Shown here: positions 2,590 through 21,908 of the stretch, in pieces | Layout of the letters: every line of letters starts with the position of its first letter | Numbering within the stretch: the stretch's first letter is position 1 | Virus record (IMG/VR): IMGVR_UViG_3300034407_000446 | Location: 1 to 23,654 of that record | From: a virus | Strand: one strand, 5' to 3' | Length of the DNA stretch: 23,654 bases | Notes under the pieces: generated by a model | Database searches by the model: none | What the model was told of the DNA's origin: nothing | The model's input: the letters and a program-made list of their open reading frames with translations, nothing else | Position numbers and translations under genes: made by a program

Positions 2590-2901
2590 ATGATAGGTAG
2601 AGACACTATACTAGACAATGCTAAAGCCTTAGTTACAGGAGACAGAGACAAAGAGTATGGCAGTGCCTTTGATAACTTCAATGACATAGCTAGAGGATGG
2701 AGTGTTATATTAGACAAGCATATAACACGAGAGGATGTCATACTGTGTATGTCATGGGTTAAGATAGCACGTTTAGTAAAGACACCTAGTCACATAGATA
2801 GTTGGACAGATCTGGCTGGGTATGCAGGACTAGGTGGTGAGATAGGATCAATAGATGCATCAACTAAAATTGAAATGGCAAGAAAAGGAAATGTAACATG
2901 A
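2590..2901 (+). CDS. DUF6378-like phage protein, 103 aa
   Basis: The ATG has a good ribosome-binding site (taggag). The pattern is a helix with ALVTGDRDKEYGSAFDNF, then W-S, REDVILCMSWVKIARL, and DSWTDLAGYAGLGGEI. This resembles what I remember of DUF6378, a small all-helical phage family often found near nucleotide-metabolism or DNA genes. The GDRxKxYG and DSWxDxAGY motifs are the strongest points. The spaced acidic and His residues recall the all-alpha NTP hydrolases, but I do not see a full metal-binding set, so an enzymatic role is not claimed. The stop overlaps the next ATG (ATGA). Confidence 0.65.
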   Translation: MIGRDTILDNAKALVTGDRDKEYGSAFDNFNDIARGWSVILDKHITREDVILCMSWVKIARLVKTPSHIDSWTDLAGYAGLGGEIGSIDASTKIEMARKGNVT

Positions 2902-3374
2902 ACTTATTTTTTATAGACAAATGCCCAATCAAATCAGCACAACAACTATGTGATAAGCACGTAGTCAAGATGGTGTTGGAGACTGCACAGATGTGTAGCA
3001 CTGCTATGCATGAGTGGGGCTTTGCACGACACCTAAAGCATGTATATAAATCTGCCTACAAGAATCACCCTATGACTGTGTGGGTTAGAGACAACGAACA
3101 TAACTTTGCATGGGCTGTAAATCATGGCCTTGAGATAGGCCGAGAGTATACACGTAGGTATGGTAAGATACACAAAAGTACCGCAGTACTAGCAGAGATG
3201 GATGATGGGTGGGTTCACGATGATTATGATGCACACACTACACCACCACAGTGTATGCCAGATGAGTTCAAGTGTGACGATTATGTGGAAGCGTATCGTG
3301 CATACTACCGCAAGGATAAACGCTACATACTACACTGGACAGGCAGACCTGTACCTGATTGGATTACAGCTTGA
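2898..3374 (+). CDS. Conserved phage protein, possibly related to pyrimidine-dimer glycosylase
   Basis: 158 residues with a conserved pattern seen in many marine phages: an N-terminal FIDKCPIKSAQQLCDKHVVK (5-24), NHPMTVWVRDN, EYTRRYGKIHKS, PPQCMPDEFK, and EAYRAYY followed by a W and P-x-W near the C-terminus. The DKHVVKMVLE segment and the YGK-H motif recall the Pyr_excise group, a family of small DNA-repair glycosylases, as sometimes annotated. That link is weak and from memory. The protein is soluble and translated by overlap with the preceding gene. I am confident it is a real conserved gene, much less of its function. Confidence 0.65.
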   Translation: MNLFFIDKCPIKSAQQLCDKHVVKMVLETAQMCSTAMHEWGFARHLKHVYKSAYKNHPMTVWVRDNEHNFAWAVNHGLEIGREYTRRYGKIHKSTAVLAEMDDGWVHDDYDAHTTPPQCMPDEFKCDDYVEAYRAYYRKDKRYILHWTGRPVPDWITA

Positions 3375-4206: not shown

Positions 4207-4479
4207 ATGTTAGATGACCATGAAGGAACAAGAACAATAACTAAAACCCCACTGTACACATTTGATTGGTACATAAAATGGGTAGCAAGTCTGCTACTTA
4301 TGATTGGTATGGTACTTACTGCAAACAATATCTTTCCTATCAACTTAATCTTTCATGCAATAGGCATTGCAGGTTGGTTGTGGGTAGGTATGCTATGGAA
4401 TGATAGGGCGTTGATCTTTATCAACACATTTGCTTTAGCCACACTCACTAGTAGTTTAGCTAAGATATATATCCTATAA
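4207..4479 (+). CDS. Three-helix membrane protein, 90 aa (holin candidate)
   Basis: A polar N-terminus of about 22 residues with DWYIKW is followed by three hydrophobic segments at about 24-41, 44-63 and 67-90, separated by a short NIFP turn and a WNDR loop. The PINLIFH and GWLWVGMLWNDRAL segments look conserved and I recall similar small proteins in marine bacteria and phages, without a known function. Size and three spans would fit a class I holin, and an endolysin lies upstream in the same operon. It is also directly next to the permease-like gene, so a transport partner is possible. A ribosome-binding site (aaagga) supports the start. Confidence 0.6.
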   Translation: MLDDHEGTRTITKTPLYTFDWYIKWVASLLLMIGMVLTANNIFPINLIFHAIGIAGWLWVGMLWNDRALIFINTFALATLTSSLAKIYIL

Positions 4480-4489
4480 GGAGATAAAT

Positions 4490-5449
4490 ATGGAAAGTGT
4501 AACATTATGGATGGGGATAGGATTCTTGTTAGCTGCCTACTCTGTGATAGCAAACGACTCTGTACAAACATTGGGTACTTGGATAGCATCCAATAATGAA
4601 AAGTTTAATTGGAAAACACTATGGGTATCAGCATCCTCTGTGTTACTTGCTACGTTGTGGTATGGGTGGTACATAAATGGTGGAGACATAAGTTATGGAA
4701 GATTAACTAAGATACCCTTTCAAGAAGTACAATGGTATCATGCAACAGCACCTGCTTTGCTACTGCTACTAACTAGGATAGGAGTGCCTGTCTCTACCAG
4801 TTTCCTAGTGTTATCTGCTTTTGCTAGTACGTTTGTACTAGAGAAAATGTTAATGAAATCCATGATGGGTTATGCAGTAGCAGGTGTAGCAGCCTATGCT
4901 ATCTGGTTTGCCATAACGAAGTACTTTGATGAGAGCACTCCTGTTAAGGAAGAACACAAAAGATACTGGCACATAGGACAATGGACAGCTACAGGTTTTC
5001 TGTGGTGGACATGGCTATCACATGACATAGCAAACATTGCAGTGTTCCTACCTCGCACTGTACCTGTAGATCTCATGGTAATAATTAGTACTGTATTTGT
5101 ATTAGGATTAGCATGGGTCTTCCATGAAAGAGGAGGTAGAATACAGAGTATTGTACTAGAAAAGAAACACACACGTTATGTAAGAAGTGCATGTCTTATT
5201 GACATGTTTTATTTTGTAGTGCTATGGTTCTTTAAAGAACTTAATAATATTCCAATGAGTACCACTTGGGTATTTGTAGGACTACTAACAGGAAGGGAAC
5301 TAGCTATAGCTACACTAACTAACAAAGAAAGTTTTAAGAAAGTATTTCCATTGGTAGGTAAAGACTTCTTTAAAATGATGATAGGGTTAGGTGCTAGTGT
5401 CGGCATAGTTCTTGGGATACACTATATTATAATTCCAAATGGATACTAG
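4490..5449 (+). CDS. PiT-like inorganic phosphate (anion) permease
   Basis: 319 residues with about 8-9 hydrophobic spans. It shows the duplicated PiT/Pho-4 signature. In the first half, IANDSVQTLGT (20-30) corresponds to the PiT GANDVANxxGT motif, and GVPVSTS (98-104) to its PvSTT motif. In the second half, SHDIAN (177-182) and IPMSTT (254-259) repeat the pair. PiT proteins import phosphate with Na+ or H+ using these inverted repeats. As a phage gene this would be an auxiliary metabolic gene raising phosphate uptake for DNA synthesis. At 319 residues it is shorter than usual PiT transporters, so it may be a reduced or diverged form, and the substrate is inferred. A good ribosome-binding site (aaggag) precedes the ATG. 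Confidence 0.65.
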   Translation: MESVTLWMGIGFLLAAYSVIANDSVQTLGTWIASNNEKFNWKTLWVSASSVLLATLWYGWYINGGDISYGRLTKIPFQEVQWYHATAPALLLLLTRIGVPVSTSFLVLSAFASTFVLEKMLMKSMMGYAVAGVAAYAIWFAITKYFDESTPVKEEHKRYWHIGQWTATGFLWWTWLSHDIANIAVFLPRTVPVDLMVIISTVFVLGLAWVFHERGGRIQSIVLEKKHTRYVRSACLIDMFYFVVLWFFKELNNIPMSTTWVFVGLLTGRELAIATLTNKESFKKVFPLVGKDFFKMMIGLGASVGIVLGIHYIIIPNGY

Positions 5450-5460
5450 GAGGAATAACA

Positions 5461-6342
5461 ATGAGAGCGATACCACTAAAGAAGTTGGTCAAGCTATACT
5501 TACAGTCATCTGAGTTTAATCGCTTACGTGATCAAACAAAGTTAGACTACACTAGGTTCTTAAAGATATTGACAGACACGTTAGGTGAAACAACTGCCTC
5601 TGTTGTATCAGGTAAGGACGCAAGGATGGCGTATGAAGAATGGGTTACACGAGGCATACACCTAGCTAATCACGTGGCAGCAGTAGCTGGCATTGTGTAT
5701 AGGCATGGTCAGGATATGGAGTACGTTAAGAATAATCCATTCACGCTAGTAAGGAAGCTATCACCTGTTGCACGTAACACAGTATGGACACAGGATCAGG
5801 TGCGTCAGTTTCTTGATGTAGCCTATGGTGACTTTGTGTATCGTAATGTGGGACTGATAGTGCAGATGGCCTACGAATGGTGTCAGCGTGTGGGTGATAT
5901 GCGTATGCTGACATGGGATAGTATTGACTTCAATACACGTAGACTAAAACTGCTACAGTCCAAGCGTGGTGCAGAGGTACAGCTACCTATATCAGATGAG
6001 TTACTTGAAATGCTTACAGAACAACGTCAGGACTTTGACTTCCAGAAATATGTAGCACCTATGCCTACACCTTATGGTGGTGAGTACAAGCCATTCTCAA
6101 TGGAACGATTGTCCAAGATAGGTAGGAAGATAATGCGACAGGCTAAACTGCCAGATGAATTACGCTTGATGGATCTTAGAAGAACTGGTACAACTGAAAT
6201 GGTAGAGGCAGGTGTTCCACTGCCACAGATTATGTCAGTGACAGGTCATGCTAATCCACAATCGGTGAAGCCTTACATAAAGAATACTTATCTTAGTGCT
6301 AACAGTGCGCTGACTGCACGACAACAGTTTAAGGAGGAATGA
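5461..6342 (+). CDS. int: Tyrosine recombinase (phage integrase) with altered box II
   Basis: 293 residues. The N-terminal half is the SAM-like core-binding domain; the catalytic domain starts near residue 108. Visible catalytic residues are Arg143 (in QRVGDMRML), Lys168 (SKRGAEVQLP), Arg240 (MDLRRTGTT), His263 (TGHANPQS) and Tyr272, nine residues after that His as in XerD. The usual HxxR of box II reads M237-D-L-R240, so the first His is replaced by Met; some active recombinases tolerate change here. The enzyme would integrate or excise the phage genome, implying at least potential lysogeny. No tRNA fragment or attP core was recognised nearby, and there is almost no intergenic space on either side. 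A strong aggagg ribosome-binding site precedes it. Confidence 0.9.
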   Translation: MRAIPLKKLVKLYLQSSEFNRLRDQTKLDYTRFLKILTDTLGETTASVVSGKDARMAYEEWVTRGIHLANHVAAVAGIVYRHGQDMEYVKNNPFTLVRKLSPVARNTVWTQDQVRQFLDVAYGDFVYRNVGLIVQMAYEWCQRVGDMRMLTWDSIDFNTRRLKLLQSKRGAEVQLPISDELLEMLTEQRQDFDFQKYVAPMPTPYGGEYKPFSMERLSKIGRKIMRQAKLPDELRLMDLRRTGTTEMVEAGVPLPQIMSVTGHANPQSVKPYIKNTYLSANSALTARQQFKEE

Positions 6343-9050: not shown

Positions 9051-9737
9051 ATGGTTAATATATTCACACCTAAGAAGGATGCAGATGAGCAGATCTTCTT
9101 TCCATTTGGTCCTGTCATGGGCTACAAGAAACTAAGTCCTGAGTTTGTAAAGAACATGAATAGTTTCTATGAAGAAGAACCTAATCTACAAGACTATTCA
9201 GATAACTTAGTTGGTAAGGTAGGTCAGGAGCTACACTTCAGTGAAGCAATGAGAGACTTATTCCTTAATGAAGTCAAAGACTTTATAGGCAGGTATAATC
9301 AGACAGCTACTATACGAAACTCATATGGTAGAAACAGATTAAATACAGATGCATTCGATTATAGTATGCAGTTTGTATCTGGTTGGTTAGTTAGACAATT
9401 TCAACATGAGTACAATCCAGTGCATCTACATACAGGATGTCGTATGTCCTGTGTTGGGTATCTTAAACTGCCTGAAGGTATCGAGAAAGAATGGGAAGAG
9501 GACTACAAAGATCATCATCCTTCTCATGGACACATACAGTTTATATCTGGTAGTGCAGGTAGCTACAGTGCTACAAACTTTATGGTAAGACCACAAGTAG
9601 GAGACTTCTATGTATTCCCTAGTGAGTTGTTCCATTGTGTGTATCCTTTCTATACTAAAGGTGAGCGCAGATCATTTAGTTCTAACTTTAACTTCGTAGA
9701 AATTCCTAAAGGAGAGAAAAGTGAAACTGACTCTTGA
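9051..9737 (+). CDS. 2-oxoglutarate/Fe(II)-dependent oxygenase
   Basis: 228 residues with the double-stranded beta-helix pattern of the phage 2OG-Fe(II) group. The metal ligands are probably H125-x-H127 (NPVHLHTG), in place of the classic HxD, and His195 (SELFHCVYPF). Arg206/Arg207 (GERRSFSSN) would bind the 2-oxoglutarate carboxylate. HIQFISGS and DFYVFPSE are the expected strands. Members hydroxylate proteins, nucleic acids or small molecules; many marine phages carry one with unknown substrate. It sits between helicase and polymerase and its end overlaps the polymerase start by 17 bases, so a link to replication or DNA modification is plausible but inferred. Confidence 0.85.
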   Translation: MVNIFTPKKDADEQIFFPFGPVMGYKKLSPEFVKNMNSFYEEEPNLQDYSDNLVGKVGQELHFSEAMRDLFLNEVKDFIGRYNQTATIRNSYGRNRLNTDAFDYSMQFVSGWLVRQFQHEYNPVHLHTGCRMSCVGYLKLPEGIEKEWEEDYKDHHPSHGHIQFISGSAGSYSATNFMVRPQVGDFYVFPSELFHCVYPFYTKGERRSFSSNFNFVEIPKGEKSETDS

Positions 9738-15192: not shown

Positions 15193-17151
15193 ATGCACAC
15201 AAATAATTATTTAAGTTCTGACTACCAAAATTTTATTGCGCTATCACGCTATGCCAGATGGAGAGAAGGTGATCAGAGGCGTGAAGGTTGGCTTGAGACA
15301 GTAGAGAGATACTTCAACTATCTTGAGAACTACGTAAAAGATAAGTATGGTTACACGATGCCTGATGATATACACAAGAAACTATCTAGTGCAGTACAGG
15401 ATTTAAATGTTATGCCAAGTATGAGAGCATTGATGACAGCAGGAGCACCATTGGATATATGCCACGTGCCTAGCTACAACTGTTCATACATGACAGTAGA
15501 TACGCCAAGAGTATTTGATGAATGCATGTACATACTTATGTGTGGTACAGGTGTTGGCTTCTCTGTTGAGAGACAGTACACAGATAAGCTACCCATAGTT
15601 AATGAAGAACTACATCATTCAGATACAGTAATTAAAGTAGGAGACTCACGTGTTGGATGGTCAAAGTCTCTCAAAGAATTACTAGCTATGTTATACTCTG
15701 GTCAGATACCTACATGGGATGTCAGTGCAGTACGTCCTGCTGGTGCTAGGCTAAAGACCTTTGGTGGTCGGGCATCTGGTCCTGCACCACTAGAAGATCT
15801 GTTTAACTTCTGCATTGAGAAGTTTAAAGGTGCAGTAGGACGTAGACTAACACCATTAGAGTGCCATGACATCATGTGTAAGATAGGTGAGGTGGTGGTA
15901 GTAGGTGGTGTAAGACGTAGTGCACTGATCAGCCTGTCAGATATTGATGACGATCAGATGCGCCATGCTAAATCAGGACAGTGGTGGGAGAATGAAGGAC
16001 AGAGAGCACTAGCTAACAACAGTGTAGCTTATAGCACTAAGCCTGACATGGGAACATTCATGCGAGAATGGACATCACTGTACGAAAGTCAATCTGGTGA
16101 GCGTGGTATATTCAACAGGCAGTCAGCAGTTAAACAGGTTAAAAAAACAGGTAGAAGACAATCTTTAAAAAGTTGGACAAATGAACCATATCTGTTTGGT
16201 TGTAACCCATGCTCTGAGATTATACTAAGACCATTTCAGTTCTGTAACCTATCGGAAGTAGTAGCACGTAATACTGATACACTTAAAACACTTAAAGAGA
16301 AAGTAAAGTTAGCTACTATACTAGGTACATTACAATCTACACTTACTGACTTTAGATATTTACGTAAGATATGGAAGACTAATACTGAGGAAGAAAGGTT
16401 GTTAGGTGTATCTCTTACAGGTATCATGGACTGTCCATTGTTAAATGGTAAGCAACAGAGAAACAATCTTCCTAAAGTATTAGAGGAACTAAAGAAAGTA
16501 GCTATAGATACCAACAAAAAAATAGCAAAGGCAATAGGTATCAACATGTCAGTAGCTATTACATGTGTTAAGCCATCAGGTACTGTATCACAGCTAGTAG
16601 ATAGTGCCAGTGGCATTCATGCAAGGCATAGTCCATACTACATCAGGACAGTACGTGCTGATAACAAAGACCCTATGACACAGTTCATGGTTGATATGGG
16701 TATACCTAATGAGCCTGACGTTACTAAGCCTTTAGACACTACAGTGTTTAGCTTTCCTACTATTGCACCAATAGGGGCTGTGACACGTAATGACATGACA
16801 GCAATAGAGCAGTTAAATCTGTGGCTAACATATCAAACACACTGGTGTGAACACAAACCATCTGTTACAATATCGGTTAAGCAGAACGAATGGATGGAAG
16901 TAGGAGCATGGGTGTATGAGAACTTTGATGATCTATCAGGCATTAGCTTCCTACCTTACAGCGAGCATGTGTATAAGCAAGCTCCCTACCAAGAGGTAGA
17001 TAAGTCTACATGCATGGAGATGGTTAAGCGTATGCCAAGCAGAATAGATTGGAGTAAGCTATCCGACTATGAAAAGGAAGATGGCACATCAGGAGGCAGG
17101 GAACTAGCCTGTTCAGCAGGGGTGTGTGAAGTTGTTGATTTAACTACATAA
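15193..17151 (+). CDS. nrdJ: Monomeric class II (B12-dependent) ribonucleotide reductase
   Basis: 652 residues of the RTPR type (Lactobacillus leichmannii model). Key residues have the right spacing: Cys97 (YNCSYM, for Cys119), Asn338-x-Cys340-x-Glu342 (NPCSEI, for Asn406, Cys408, Glu410), Cys351 (eleven after Cys340, for Cys419), and the C-terminal reducing pair Cys640/Cys645 (ACSAGVCE, for Cys731/Cys736). KPSGT is also present. The enzyme uses adenosylcobalamin to form the Cys340 thiyl radical and reduces ribonucleoside triphosphates, supplying dNTPs without oxygen or iron, which suits marine hosts. At about 90 residues shorter than the model it is a reduced form. A bacterial host must supply or import B12. 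Confidence 0.93.
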   Translation: MHTNNYLSSDYQNFIALSRYARWREGDQRREGWLETVERYFNYLENYVKDKYGYTMPDDIHKKLSSAVQDLNVMPSMRALMTAGAPLDICHVPSYNCSYMTVDTPRVFDECMYILMCGTGVGFSVERQYTDKLPIVNEELHHSDTVIKVGDSRVGWSKSLKELLAMLYSGQIPTWDVSAVRPAGARLKTFGGRASGPAPLEDLFNFCIEKFKGAVGRRLTPLECHDIMCKIGEVVVVGGVRRSALISLSDIDDDQMRHAKSGQWWENEGQRALANNSVAYSTKPDMGTFMREWTSLYESQSGERGIFNRQSAVKQVKKTGRRQSLKSWTNEPYLFGCNPCSEIILRPFQFCNLSEVVARNTDTLKTLKEKVKLATILGTLQSTLTDFRYLRKIWKTNTEEERLLGVSLTGIMDCPLLNGKQQRNNLPKVLEELKKVAIDTNKKIAKAIGINMSVAITCVKPSGTVSQLVDSASGIHARHSPYYIRTVRADNKDPMTQFMVDMGIPNEPDVTKPLDTTVFSFPTIAPIGAVTRNDMTAIEQLNLWLTYQTHWCEHKPSVTISVKQNEWMEVGAWVYENFDDLSGISFLPYSEHVYKQAPYQEVDKSTCMEMVKRMPSRIDWSKLSDYEKEDGTSGGRELACSAGVCEVVDLTT

Positions 17152-17654: not shown

Positions 17655-17864
17655 ATGCGTAGAGGACTAAATAAGAATGATGCACCACTAAAAATACAGT
17701 GGCGTAGAGGTTACGATGCTTTCTACAGGGGAGCAAAGTATACTAACCCCTACAAAGAAAACTCCATGCAATCTAGAGAGTGGGAACGTGGTTATAACAA
17801 GGCCTACTTTGAGACACTACGAAAGGTGAAGCATGAAGAGCAACTTAGAACAGTCGGCACTTAA
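17655..17864 (+). CDS. Ribosome modulation factor-like (RMF/CrpP family) protein
   Basis: 69 basic residues. The pattern G19-Y-x-A-x3-G26, N31-P-Y33, W43-x2-G46-Y and A50 follows E. coli RMF, as I recall it (RGYQAGIAG, CPYQ, QWLGGWREA). RMF binds near the anti-Shine-Dalgarno region of 16S rRNA and turns 70S ribosomes into silent 100S dimers; CrpP is a related short protein. This copy has a longer C-terminal helix (KVKHEEQLRT). A phage version could hold back host translation or protect ribosomes during starvation. Ribosome-binding site gggag. The spacing NPY-to-W differs slightly from RMF, so family membership is good but activity is inferred. Confidence 0.65.
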   Translation: MRRGLNKNDAPLKIQWRRGYDAFYRGAKYTNPYKENSMQSREWERGYNKAYFETLRKVKHEEQLRTVGT

Positions 17865-17871
17865 CTGGTTG

Positions 17872-17877
17872 AAGGAG
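17872..17877 (+). promoter_or_regulatory. Ribosome-binding site selecting the MazG-like start at 17887
   Basis: AAGGAG lies 9 bases before ATG 17887, where the conserved family N-terminus begins. The in-frame ATG at 17833 has no such site, and ATG 17882 is out of frame. Confidence 0.65.
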
Positions 17878-17886
17878 AGATATGCA

Positions 17887-18216
17887 ATGTTAGATTTTAA
17901 TGATTACCAAAAGATCGCACAGACAACAGCTATATATCCACGAGAATATAAGATTACATATCCAGCTTTAGGTTTAGTTGGGGAAGCAGGTGAGGTAGCT
18001 AATAAGGTAAAGAAACTTATTAGGGATGGTGAAGATACCATGCCTCACGATTGGAAGGAACAACTAGCATCAGAGATAGGTGATGTACTGTGGTACTGTG
18101 CAGCACTGGCATCTGATCTTGACATGTCGTTAAGTGTTATAGCTAAACAGAATAAGGATAAGCTAGAAGCTAGGTTAAAGAAAGGTACGATACAGGGTAG
18201 TGGAGATAAGCGTTAG
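17887..18216 (+). CDS. MazG-like nucleotide pyrophosphohydrolase
   Basis: 109 residues. The metal-binding set is Glu33 and Glu36 (LVGEAGEVANKVKK), Glu63 and Asp66 (EIGDVLWY), the E-x2-E...E-x2-D arrangement of MazG/dUTPase-type all-alpha pyrophosphatases. The N-terminus MLDFNDYQKIAQTTAIYP is the usual opening of the phage and bacterial form. Such enzymes remove pyrophosphate from NTPs or damaged nucleotides. In phages, MazG has been proposed to hydrolyse ppGpp or to adjust dNTP pools, which would fit the reductase upstream. The gene ends on the stop of the convergent virion gene (4-base overlap). Confidence 0.88.
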   Translation: MLDFNDYQKIAQTTAIYPREYKITYPALGLVGEAGEVANKVKKLIRDGEDTMPHDWKEQLASEIGDVLWYCAALASDLDMSLSVIAKQNKDKLEARLKKGTIQGSGDKR

Positions 18217-21200
18217 TTACTTATCATAGACCTACCTAATGCCGCCGCAGTAGCAAGATGATCTACATCAGGTTCTATTCTCTGTTGTTCTAAAACTGTT
18301 TTACCATACATAGTTTTATATATATCATCTGCTAATGCACGGCCTCTTCTACCAGTTTTAATCCACTCCCCTCTACTAAAAGGAGTCGGTCCAGATCCAC
18401 CTTGTACATCACGTGCGGCTACTTCTCCTAAAGATTTAGCCACTTGATTTAAACTGTTAAGTCTTTTACGTATTTCATTTTCCTGTTGTGGCCTACTAAG
18501 TTTCTTATACACTCTAGACTCTACGAGCTTACCTAATTCACTCTCTACAAATGGACCTAGATATTTATTTACATGACCAGCTGCAATCTTATCACCAGTA
18601 TTTACAGTAAGTGTGAATGATTTCATGCCATGTTTTTCTAGTTCTCTTTCAATAGAGTTAAATCTTTCACGTGTAGTTGTACCAAAGAAAGCTCTCATTA
18701 GTGAGTCTTGTCTATATCTATAGTCTGCTCTAGTTGTTTGTTCTTTGGGAGGCAGGGATTGTTTTAGTATGGGTATTCTATATGTATATCTATTTAAGGT
18801 TGCATCACCTACACGTTCAAAGAAACCCTCTCCCTCTACCTGTGCAGGATCTCTCTGCATTGCTTCTTGATCATCAAAGAAAGATAATACATCTGACAGA
18901 AAACCCAAACCTGTTAATGGTCTTCCAGTTACTTCACCTAGATAGTTACCAATCTTATCTGCTATTCTCTCATTAGCAATTTTATCTGTACCACCCTCTG
19001 TGATACCTTCTAAAATAAGTTTAACTATTGCTTCAGATGTACCTGCATAATCTCCTGTTCTATACCTAACACCTGTATAGTCTTTTGCAAACTGTAGAAA
19101 ATCTACTCCTGTTCCTACTGACAGACCTTCATCGTTATTCCTAATCATCTTGTGTATTATTTTACCTAGAGCTAGATGTGCTCCAATAGGCCAGAATCTT
19201 TGCATGTCGTACTGTCTGCCATCATCAGCTTTGATTACAGTTGGAGGTAAGTCACCATCTCCTTGTTCGTACATATACTCTGCATATTTAACTGATGAAA
19301 TTAGTAGACCTGTACCTACTATAGCTTTCCCTAAACGATCTCTTGCGTACTGCATATCAGCAGGTGTTGTCGCATCCAGCATTTCATCGCCCTGTTTTTT
19401 TAACATTTTATTAACCATCATAGTAACAGCGTTCTTAGTTCCTTTAGCACCTTTCATAATTCCTCTACCAGAAGGGATAGCACCTAAAGGACTGTATGCT
19501 AACTGGTGCGCTATAGCATTAACTGTAAATCTTGCATATGGGAACTGTCCTGTTCCAATACCGGGAACAAAAGGTAGAGCTTCTACTAAACGAACAGCAC
19601 CATTACCAGCCCCTTCTAAAAACCCACCGCCCTGTTTCCAACTACGAGGCATAGAGGCAAATGTAGCTTGCATAGCGTCACGTGCACTAGCTTTTAATAC
19701 ATCTGTAGTTAGCTCTGCTTCCCTCGCCACAAGCTCATCGAAGCTAACACCAGTACGTCTTAACTTTCTATCTACTGAAGCTGCAAAGATTGCTCGTCTA
19801 CCATACACATCTACTACCATATTTAAATGGTTTGCTAATGTAGAAAATTTACTTAGTCCTGAATTATTATCAAAGCCACTCATTGATCTATCTATAGTTC
19901 TAGCTATATTAGGATTATGTTTAAGTAAATACTCTGTCATCTCCTGTGCTAGTTGCGGATTATCTAAAAATAGAAATGGTGCAAGTGTGTCTTTAGTCAT
20001 GTTACTAAATCCATTAATCACACCTTTAGCAGATGCCTGACCTGTAGCAATACTTTTAGCAGATCTACCCAAGTGATACAGTGTTGTTTCAAAAGCATTA
20101 GCAGCAGCTTGAAATGTCTGTGTACCCATGAGAGAAGCTAAGTTAGCAGCCGTAGTACCTAACTGTACAACTGCTAATGCTCTACCTTCACGATCTAATC
20201 TTTTTATGCCTTCATAAAACCAGTTATTATACTGTGTTCTAGCTGGGTTATTTGATAATTGATCTAGTGCTTTAGCAAAATCCTCATTTATAAGTTTTCC
20301 ATCTGCACCTTTTTTATTTCTCCATGCTTCTATCCGCTTACCTAAAGGACCGAGCATACCTATAGCTTTACCACTTTCAGACCACGATACAGCAGTCATT
20401 GCTTCAAAAGACTCTACATCTATTCCTGCTTTTGCTAGAGCTTTATCTAATAAATCAGGATCTAATTCTCTAGCAGTAGATGTTTTAGTAATAGTTCTAA
20501 CCATCTCATTTACTTTTAACTTTGAGAACTGATCTACAGACATACCTAGATCGTTAGCTAATTTATTTACCTCACCTCTAACTTCATAGTCTTTAAATAT
20601 AGTTTCAGCTACAGTAGTTATTCTGGCTAGTACTTCATTCTTTACTTTAACATCTAATAAATCTAAATTTTCTGCATTACCTAGATCGTCTAGTAGTTTT
20701 TTACCGTCTATAGGATTTACTAATGTATTGGATAGTTGCTCTACATCAAACAGTTCACCCTGACCAGTTTGTTTACTTTCTACATTTTCTATTATTAGGT
20801 TAGACTGTTCAGCATTTTGTTTAGAGTCTTCTTTTATCTTACTAGCTTTTTCTTTTCTTAACTTTTTCTGGTATGCTAATCGCTCACTTAAATCTGCAAA
20901 CTCTGCTTTCTGAACTGATCCATATCCTACCGCACCAAAGATACCACCTGTTACCCCTGCTATAGCAGTAGTTGTAGGATCTATTTCCCTATCTTCAGAT
21001 TCTAAGTTGGCTTGTTGTAATGTTTGTATGCCTACAGATCTAGTAGCCTCTCCTAATCCCTCTACAGTAGCACCTATCTTTGCACCTCTAGCAAATCCTA
21101 CAGATTTAGCTTTTGCTAGTGCTGCTTTTCTACCTTGAGTCATTAATGTTTTCTTCACTACCTCTACTGCACTTTTAGAAAAGAATTTACCAACAAGACC

Positions 21201-21908
21201 TGTGAGGAGTACGACAGGATCAGTAACATTGTACCATAAGAAGTCTATTAATGCTGACTTAGTATCTCCACCTCCTTTTTCAAAGAAAGCAGGTATATTA
21301 TTTTCTACATCTATAAATAAATCTACAAAGTTATCTCGCTCTTCTACTGAAGCAGTACGTAACCAATCTAATTCTGATCCTAGATTAATAAGGTTAGATT
21401 CCATAGCACGTTTTGCAGTTAAAAATCTTTCAAGGTATTCTGTATTTGTCTGGTTCTCTTGTTGTCTTCCTTCTTTTCCATACCGCGCTTCAAAATGTTT
21501 ACGTAACATATCCATACGATTATTATCAGCAGACCATTCAGCTACAGATATTTTAATCTCTTCTGGTTCTGCTTTTAATTCCATACCAGACATAAGACTA
21601 CGAGGTTGCGCTCTCTCTTTTATTGCCTGTGGAGGTAAGTCTCTTCCTGCTCTAGATACATATTCAGGAGGGTCAATGTCTAATTCATCCTGACCTAACT
21701 CTTCCTGTGCTTGCACATTTTCTTTTTGTTTTTGAGGAGCGTCTAAATCTACATCTATGAGTTTATCATCATCATTATCATCTGTGTTTTTATCCATAGC
21801 CACAGATAAATCTACATCTTTAAGCTCATCATCATTTATATTTTTATCCATAACCACAGATAAATCTACATCTTTAAGCTCATCAATAGGTTCAGTTTCT
21901 AAAGACAT
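18213..21908 (-). CDS. Large internal virion (ejection) protein, 1231 aa
   Basis: A 1231-residue leftward protein, first of the virion block reached from this side. The N-terminal 65 residues are very acidic with an 18-residue tandem repeat (DELKDVDLSV-MDKN). Residues about 240-360 have Gly/Ala-rich amphipathic stretches (ARGAKIGATVEGLGEA, IAGVTGGIFGAVGYG). Later parts are helix-rich with Arg/Lys. Length, composition and a neighbouring second large helical protein match podoviral internal core proteins such as T7 gp15/gp16, which are injected into the envelope with the DNA. I see no lysozyme or transglycosylase motif. The name is inference from size and context; no specific family is recognised. 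Confidence 0.6.
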   Translation of the reverse strand: MSLETEPIDELKDVDLSVVMDKNINDDELKDVDLSVAMDKNTDDNDDDKLIDVDLDAPQKQKENVQAQEELGQDELDIDPPEYVSRAGRDLPPQAIKERAQPRSLMSGMELKAEPEEIKISVAEWSADNNRMDMLRKHFEARYGKEGRQQENQTNTEYLERFLTAKRAMESNLINLGSELDWLRTASVEERDNFVDLFIDVENNIPAFFEKGGGDTKSALIDFLWYNVTDPVVLLTGLVGKFFSKSAVEVVKKTLMTQGRKAALAKAKSVGFARGAKIGATVEGLGEATRSVGIQTLQQANLESEDREIDPTTTAIAGVTGGIFGAVGYGSVQKAEFADLSERLAYQKKLRKEKASKIKEDSKQNAEQSNLIIENVESKQTGQGELFDVEQLSNTLVNPIDGKKLLDDLGNAENLDLLDVKVKNEVLARITTVAETIFKDYEVRGEVNKLANDLGMSVDQFSKLKVNEMVRTITKTSTARELDPDLLDKALAKAGIDVESFEAMTAVSWSESGKAIGMLGPLGKRIEAWRNKKGADGKLINEDFAKALDQLSNNPARTQYNNWFYEGIKRLDREGRALAVVQLGTTAANLASLMGTQTFQAAANAFETTLYHLGRSAKSIATGQASAKGVINGFSNMTKDTLAPFLFLDNPQLAQEMTEYLLKHNPNIARTIDRSMSGFDNNSGLSKFSTLANHLNMVVDVYGRRAIFAASVDRKLRRTGVSFDELVAREAELTTDVLKASARDAMQATFASMPRSWKQGGGFLEGAGNGAVRLVEALPFVPGIGTGQFPYARFTVNAIAHQLAYSPLGAIPSGRGIMKGAKGTKNAVTMMVNKMLKKQGDEMLDATTPADMQYARDRLGKAIVGTGLLISSVKYAEYMYEQGDGDLPPTVIKADDGRQYDMQRFWPIGAHLALGKIIHKMIRNNDEGLSVGTGVDFLQFAKDYTGVRYRTGDYAGTSEAIVKLILEGITEGGTDKIANERIADKIGNYLGEVTGRPLTGLGFLSDVLSFFDDQEAMQRDPAQVEGEGFFERVGDATLNRYTYRIPILKQSLPPKEQTTRADYRYRQDSLMRAFFGTTTRERFNSIERELEKHGMKSFTLTVNTGDKIAAGHVNKYLGPFVESELGKLVESRVYKKLSRPQQENEIRKRLNSLNQVAKSLGEVAARDVQGGSGPTPFSRGEWIKTGRRGRALADDIYKTMYGKTVLEQQRIEPDVDHLATAAALGRSMISN
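21785..21900 (-). repeat. 54-bp tandem repeat encoding acidic 18-residue units
   Basis: Two nearly identical 54-base copies (starting near 21791 and 21845 on the + strand) encode DELKDVDLSV-x-MDKN repeats in the large virion protein. A third, degenerate copy (KLIDVDLDA) lies further along. Being a multiple of 18 codons, copy number changes keep the frame. Confidence 0.8.

Follow-up and report, generated by a model that had tools for sequence, protein, structure and literature searches.

A compact, diverged PiT-like permease gene in an HMO-2011-type phage and its relatives in uncultured phages

The phosphate genes described from phages are mostly pstS and phoH. A reading frame of a different kind, which an earlier sequence-only reading had interpreted as a diverged PiT-like phosphate permease, raises the question to which family the encoded protein belongs and what it might transport for the phage. 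The window, by which the whole stretch of analysed DNA is meant, comprises 23,654 bases and is an entire IMG/VR virus record. The data described below support the interpretation as a PiT-like permease.

The gene and its surroundings in the window

The permease gene is an intact open reading frame on the plus strand, running from ATG to stop (4490..5449), and encodes 319 amino acids predicted to form an all-helical membrane protein with two similarly laid-out halves. The printed sequence contains a ribosome-binding site rated as good, AAGGAG at 4478..4483 (+), which overlaps the end of the upstream gene. This upstream gene, located directly 5' (4207..4479, +), encodes a DUF6552 small membrane protein of 90 amino acids (Pfam PF20189, E 8e-20), and the two genes are probably co-transcribed. 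The same order of DUF6552 followed by the permease occurs in further HMO-2011-type relatives (loci L001-L004 and L013), and it is in HMO-2011-type relatives only that DUF6552 adjoins the permease; the small protein is a possible partner of the permease. Hypothetical proteins of the pelagimyophages HTVC008M and Mosig are 47-48% identical to it. Directly 3' of the permease a tyrosine integrase is encoded (5461..6342, +; PF00589, E 1.4e-21), which is 62% identical to the integrase of HMO-2011 and marks the insertion site of the permease relative to HMO-2011 and CRP-1, both of which lack the permease. As the gene before the integrase in these two phages is instead a homologue of the window reading frame 1049-1927, the permease and DUF6552 genes sit in a variable block 5' of the integrase.

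The DNA polymerase encoded in the window shares 65% identity with its counterparts in Puniceispirillum phage HMO-2011 and the Roseobacter phages CRP-1 and CRP-345, so that the window is a fragment of an HMO-2011-type phage, a podovirus, in agreement with the bacterial-phage context that had been claimed. The permease gene is a candidate auxiliary metabolic gene of the phage: it lies intact on a phage genome, between DUF6552 and the integrase, and has a dN/dS well under 1. Other genes in the window include a pyrimidine-dimer glycosylase-like gene (2898-3374, PF03013), a 2OG-Fe(II) oxygenase gene flanked by helicase and polymerase genes (9051-9737), a B12-dependent ribonucleotide reductase gene (15193-17151), and a MazG gene (17833-18216). 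A reading frame of 1231 amino acids on the strand opposite to the replication genes (18213-21908, -) has no Pfam match and perhaps encodes an internal virion protein.

Assignment to the PiT superfamily

Taken alone, the window protein yields no match in Pfam, NCBIfam, PHROGs, or PDB sequences, but the PHO4 search that had been proposed as a check succeeds with its relatives, 31 of 77 of which match at E ≤ 0.01 (best 2.8e-7); with a 26-member alignment, 23 of the 26 members match at E ≤ 1 (best 2.2e-6). Wherever a score is given it lies below the curated gathering cut-off of PHO4 (PF01384), 33.7 bits, which is reached in none of 20 viral contigs, the cellular copies scoring 18-24 bits. Because no tested member attains this cut-off, the permease is regarded as a diverged, unannotated sister branch of the PiT superfamily and not as an ordinary member. 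A profile of the family searched against the PDB matched a single chain, the PiT phosphate transporter 6L85 (E 1.3e-5 and 7.9e-6), and when it was compared with a profile of 33 canonical PHO4 proteins, the E value was 1.1e-4.

The alignment to 6L85 is in register at all four motifs which had been pointed out in the earlier reading (NDS/NDV, PVSTS/PVSTT, HDxAN/NDVAN, and PMSTT/PISTT). The first signature, ANDSVQTLGT (residues 21-30; 4550..4579, +), aligns with GANDVANS of 6L85, placing D23 on its D22, and the first Ser-Thr motif, PVSTS (residues 100-104; 4787..4801, +), aligns with PVSTT 103-107. In the second half SHDIAN (residues 177-182; 5018..5035, +) aligns with ANDVAN, His178 replacing Asn, and PMSTT (residues 255-259; 5252..5266, +) aligns with PISTT. 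Conservation was examined in 102 distinct homologues, 64 viral and 38 cellular or from MAGs. Residues N22, D23, P100, S102, T103, N182, P255, S257, and T258 are invariant in this set and D179 is an aspartate in 101 of the 102, which argues against a chance occurrence of the four motifs. The GANDVANA-type signature is thus degenerate in both halves (IANDSVQT and LSHDxANI), with the aspartate kept twice and the second asparagine changed to histidine, while each half has its P-x-Ser-Thr, PVST and PMST being invariant and aligned to 6L85. The two-half repeat architecture of PiT transporters, likewise claimed beforehand, is weak when judged by sequence alone, as a comparison of the half profiles placed PVSTS on PMSTT with an E value of 0.06; the internal duplication is clear, however, once both halves are aligned to 6L85 and the fold match is taken into account. 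By the same alignment, the Asn-Asp and Ser-Thr residues may face one shared site.

Structure prediction points to the same family. AlphaFold2 with a 77-sequence alignment gave a model with pLDDT 85.3 and pTM 0.84, the five models ranging from 78 to 85, and superseded a first model from 26 close sequences (pLDDT 75) for which the models disagreed and no Foldseek match was obtained. A Foldseek search of the PDB with the later model ranked 6L85_A first (E 1.1e-3, probability 1.00, TM 0.58 for the query and 0.48), and nothing else in the PDB was credible, the second-best probability being 0.16 or less. The protein is therefore very probably built on the PiT fold, so far as a predicted model can tell, and the different fold that would have spoken against the earlier reading did not emerge.

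Several residues depart from those of canonical PiT proteins. Phosphate transport by human PiT2 depends critically on D28, E55, S113, D506, E575, and S593, and H502 is critical as well; for E55 this also follows from its PiT1 counterpart E70 (PMC3126765). Transferred by the 6L85 alignment, with the step from PiT2 to 6L85 read from the motifs, five of the first six have a retained equivalent, namely D23 for D28, S102 for S113, D179 for D506, D238 for E575 (as aspartate), and S257 for S593. The equivalent of E55 is missing, with no acidic residue in helix 41-62 across the 102 homologues, and H502 corresponds to Trp175. Both histidines of the STTH motifs are replaced as well, by Phe105 after the first and Trp260 after the second Ser-Thr motif. 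The branch has invariant motifs of its own (GDISYGR, WLSHDxANIAVFLPR, GGKIQ, GRELA, and KDFxKMM) and an invariant set of subfamily-specific charged residues (D66, R71, K225, R232, R269, E270, D292, and K295). The many invariant charged positions speak for a branch that has diverged coherently and not for a PiT protein in decay, and a dN/dS of 0.03-0.10 where computable, reflecting purifying selection, is consistent with this.

Distribution in phages and bacteria

At least 599 uncultured virus contigs in IMG/VR, many of them T4-like, encode relatives of the permease, with identities of 73-100% in the best 80 of these contigs, and later IMG/VR scans found carrier contigs of up to 328 kb. T4-like genes near the relatives encode a gp32-type single-strand binding protein, a gp59-type helicase loader, DUF6267, and a virion protein, and the T4-type capsid protein Gp23 is present in 5 of 20 large carrier contigs. 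No relative was found among INPHARED phages or PLSDB plasmids, in searches that may omit entries very close to the window. No consistent co-occurrence was seen with PhoH (4 of 20 carrier contigs) or with PF02690 (none of 24), and PF02690 is absent from the Pfam matches of all 77 members at E 0.01. Of 115 loci, 12 have a PRPP synthetase gene directly 3' of the permease and 28 have one nearby, a neighbourhood which counts in favour of the phosphate-import explanation given below. Viral loci such as L100:1707-2666, L048:2023-3210, L056:4773-5837, L055:8754-9539, and L073:1746-2498 show what else permease-bearing phage contigs encode: PRPP synthetase, an aminotransferase, a fatty acid desaturase, a class 3 lipase, and a UDP-glucose dehydrogenase.

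Of the 99 genomes of one alphaproteobacterial family, 35 have a cellular copy, and many of these copies lie on contigs several hundred kilobases long; the class to which the family belongs has a copy in 9 of 385 genomes. Canonical PHO4 is found in 14 of the same 99 genomes and together with the permease homologue in 2; this apparent complementarity (Fisher p 0.13) is suggestive only and was dropped as evidence. The first matches in MAGs, from Rhodobacteraceae Water_Bin34 and others, were rejected as host genes, because their contigs appear to be of phage origin and to have been sorted into bacterial bins. Three separate contigs of the Rhodobacteraceae bacterium Water_Bin34 bin (L081, L082, and L083) each carry a copy of the viral clade and are probably phage contigs binned as bacterial. 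In the phylogenetic tree, which has moderate support, long branches, and some unsure placements, viral and cellular copies stand mostly apart and the window copy is placed among other viral copies. This distribution suggests long residence in phages and transfer between phage types. As the family libraries tried missed a PiT-type permease present in at least 599 contigs, surveys of phage-driven phosphorus uptake based on standard annotation would undercount it.

Substrate, coupling, and comparison with known systems

The cellular neighbourhoods offer some clues to the substrate. In 5 of 37 alphaproteobacterial loci (L286, L289, L306, L311, and L314) a phosphate-selective porin O/P gene follows directly 3' on the same strand, two of these porins being identified by Pfam PF07396 (E 6e-72 and 4e-74) and the remaining three recognised because they are 43-71% identical to those two. 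The binomial chance of this adjacency is about 1e-6 or less, assuming up to 10 such porins per 2000 genes. A pair of genes for a porin and an inner-membrane permease would look like the layout expected of a phosphate importer. Another Gram-negative porin lies directly 3' of the homologue in two gammaproteobacterial MAGs. Most cellular copies are not beside phosphate genes and many lie in an arginine-biosynthesis region, a neighbourhood which says nothing clear about the substrate; in about a dozen alphaproteobacterial genomes this cluster, recognised by eye, surrounds the homologue, often between argG and argH (L285, L288, L290, L292, L302, L308, and L318 among others). Judged from sequence and gene order, phosphate is the likely substrate.

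The explanation which we consider probable is that the protein belongs to the PiT (SLC20/PHO4) superfamily as a small and divergent member and that marine phages keep its gene for auxiliary metabolism, to import phosphate during infection. Synthesis of the permease would coincide with expression of the early and replication genes. Once in the inner membrane of the host, the protein would take up inorganic phosphate through an alternating-access mechanism driven by Na+ or H+, and this phosphate would feed phage nucleic-acid synthesis. The gene would then probably be a common, overlooked phage means of feeding phosphate into infected cells. A bolder and doubtful proposal is that a separate, phage-rich PiT branch has its own coupling mechanism, as the helix 2 without acidic residue and the histidine for asparagine in the second signature could indicate, and that uncultured marine phages other than cyanophages rely on it as their main gene for importing phosphate.

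The same replacements can be read differently. The family-wide loss of the E55 and H502 equivalents, critical in human PiT proteins (PMC3126765), and the invariant charged set peculiar to the subfamily would also fit a protein which keeps the PiT fold but is uncoupled, uses another coupling ion, or chiefly leaks, exports, or senses phosphate; with five of six critical positions kept and a porin linkage that suggests import, we consider this unlikely. Transport of another oxyanion by a PiT-superfamily permease, most likely of sulfate, has a precedent in Bacillus subtilis. The sulfate permease CysP of this organism belongs to PF01384 and resembles the phage permease in superfamily and compact size. 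Several motif positions unlike canonical PiT would suit such a change of substrate, and one of 26 members weakly matches the NCBIfam sulfate permease CysP (NF053884, E 0.005), yet this match is the only one among the 26. Phosphate is favoured over sulfate because the phosphate-selective porin gene directly follows five of the cellular homologues, and sulfur-assimilation genes were not noticed among the neighbours examined, by inspection without profile search, so that a sulfate permease appears distinctly improbable. An unrelated membrane protein, for example for superinfection exclusion or lysis, resembling PiT by chance would explain why no database matches the window protein on its own and why no tested member passes the PHO4 cut-off, but profile, fold, and motif register agree on one family, the chromosomal homologues have ordinary gene neighbours, and the Foldseek match to 6L85 has largely refuted this very remote alternative already.

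A phosphate importer of the PiT type therefore remains the preferred reading, and it can be set against known systems. The permease resembles canonical PiT/SLC20/PHO4 proteins (PF01384; 6L85, TmPiT) in being built of two halves, each bearing P-x-Ser-Thr and a signature, here degenerate, of the Asn-Asp type, in its predicted fold, and in five of the six critical positions, one of them as aspartate. It differs from them in scoring below the Pfam cut-off, in its length of 319 amino acids versus 402 for 6L85, in having HD rather than ND in the second signature, no acidic residue in helix 2, and no histidine after STT/STS, and in its own invariant motifs. The family offers a compact natural variant with which the residues that PiT proteins require for cation coupling could be probed.

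The claim that such a phage gene would be a distinct route of phosphate uptake was overstated, since a PF02690 Na/Pi cotransporter is known from HMO-2011-type phages, where it occurs in eight subgroup I genomes (PMC9038755), in soil phages 'pit' has been listed as a newly recognised auxiliary gene (PMC10987575), and a single phage-like marine pho4 clone, JF837193, was described in 2012 (PMC3429862). An earlier report of the permease subfamily was not found in the open-licence literature. What is new is a widespread, unannotated PiT subfamily in phages, and the novelty lies in the subfamily and not in phage phosphate transport itself. The PF02690 cotransporter occurs in the same phage group and has the same proposed role in phosphate uptake but belongs to a different, unrelated Pfam family, which is matched by none of the 24 permease-bearing contigs; two unrelated phosphate permeases in one phage group would indicate strong selection for phosphate import. 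The soil-phage 'pit' and the marine clone are also phage-carried genes of the PiT type but were picked up by standard annotation or with the PHO4 profile. Algal virus PHO4 (PMC3429862, PMC6163359) is of the same superfamily, virus-borne, and with the same proposed role; these symporters have 459-534 amino acids (PMC6163359) and are each nearest to the gene of their eukaryotic host, whereas the viral copies of the phage permease mostly group apart from the cellular ones.
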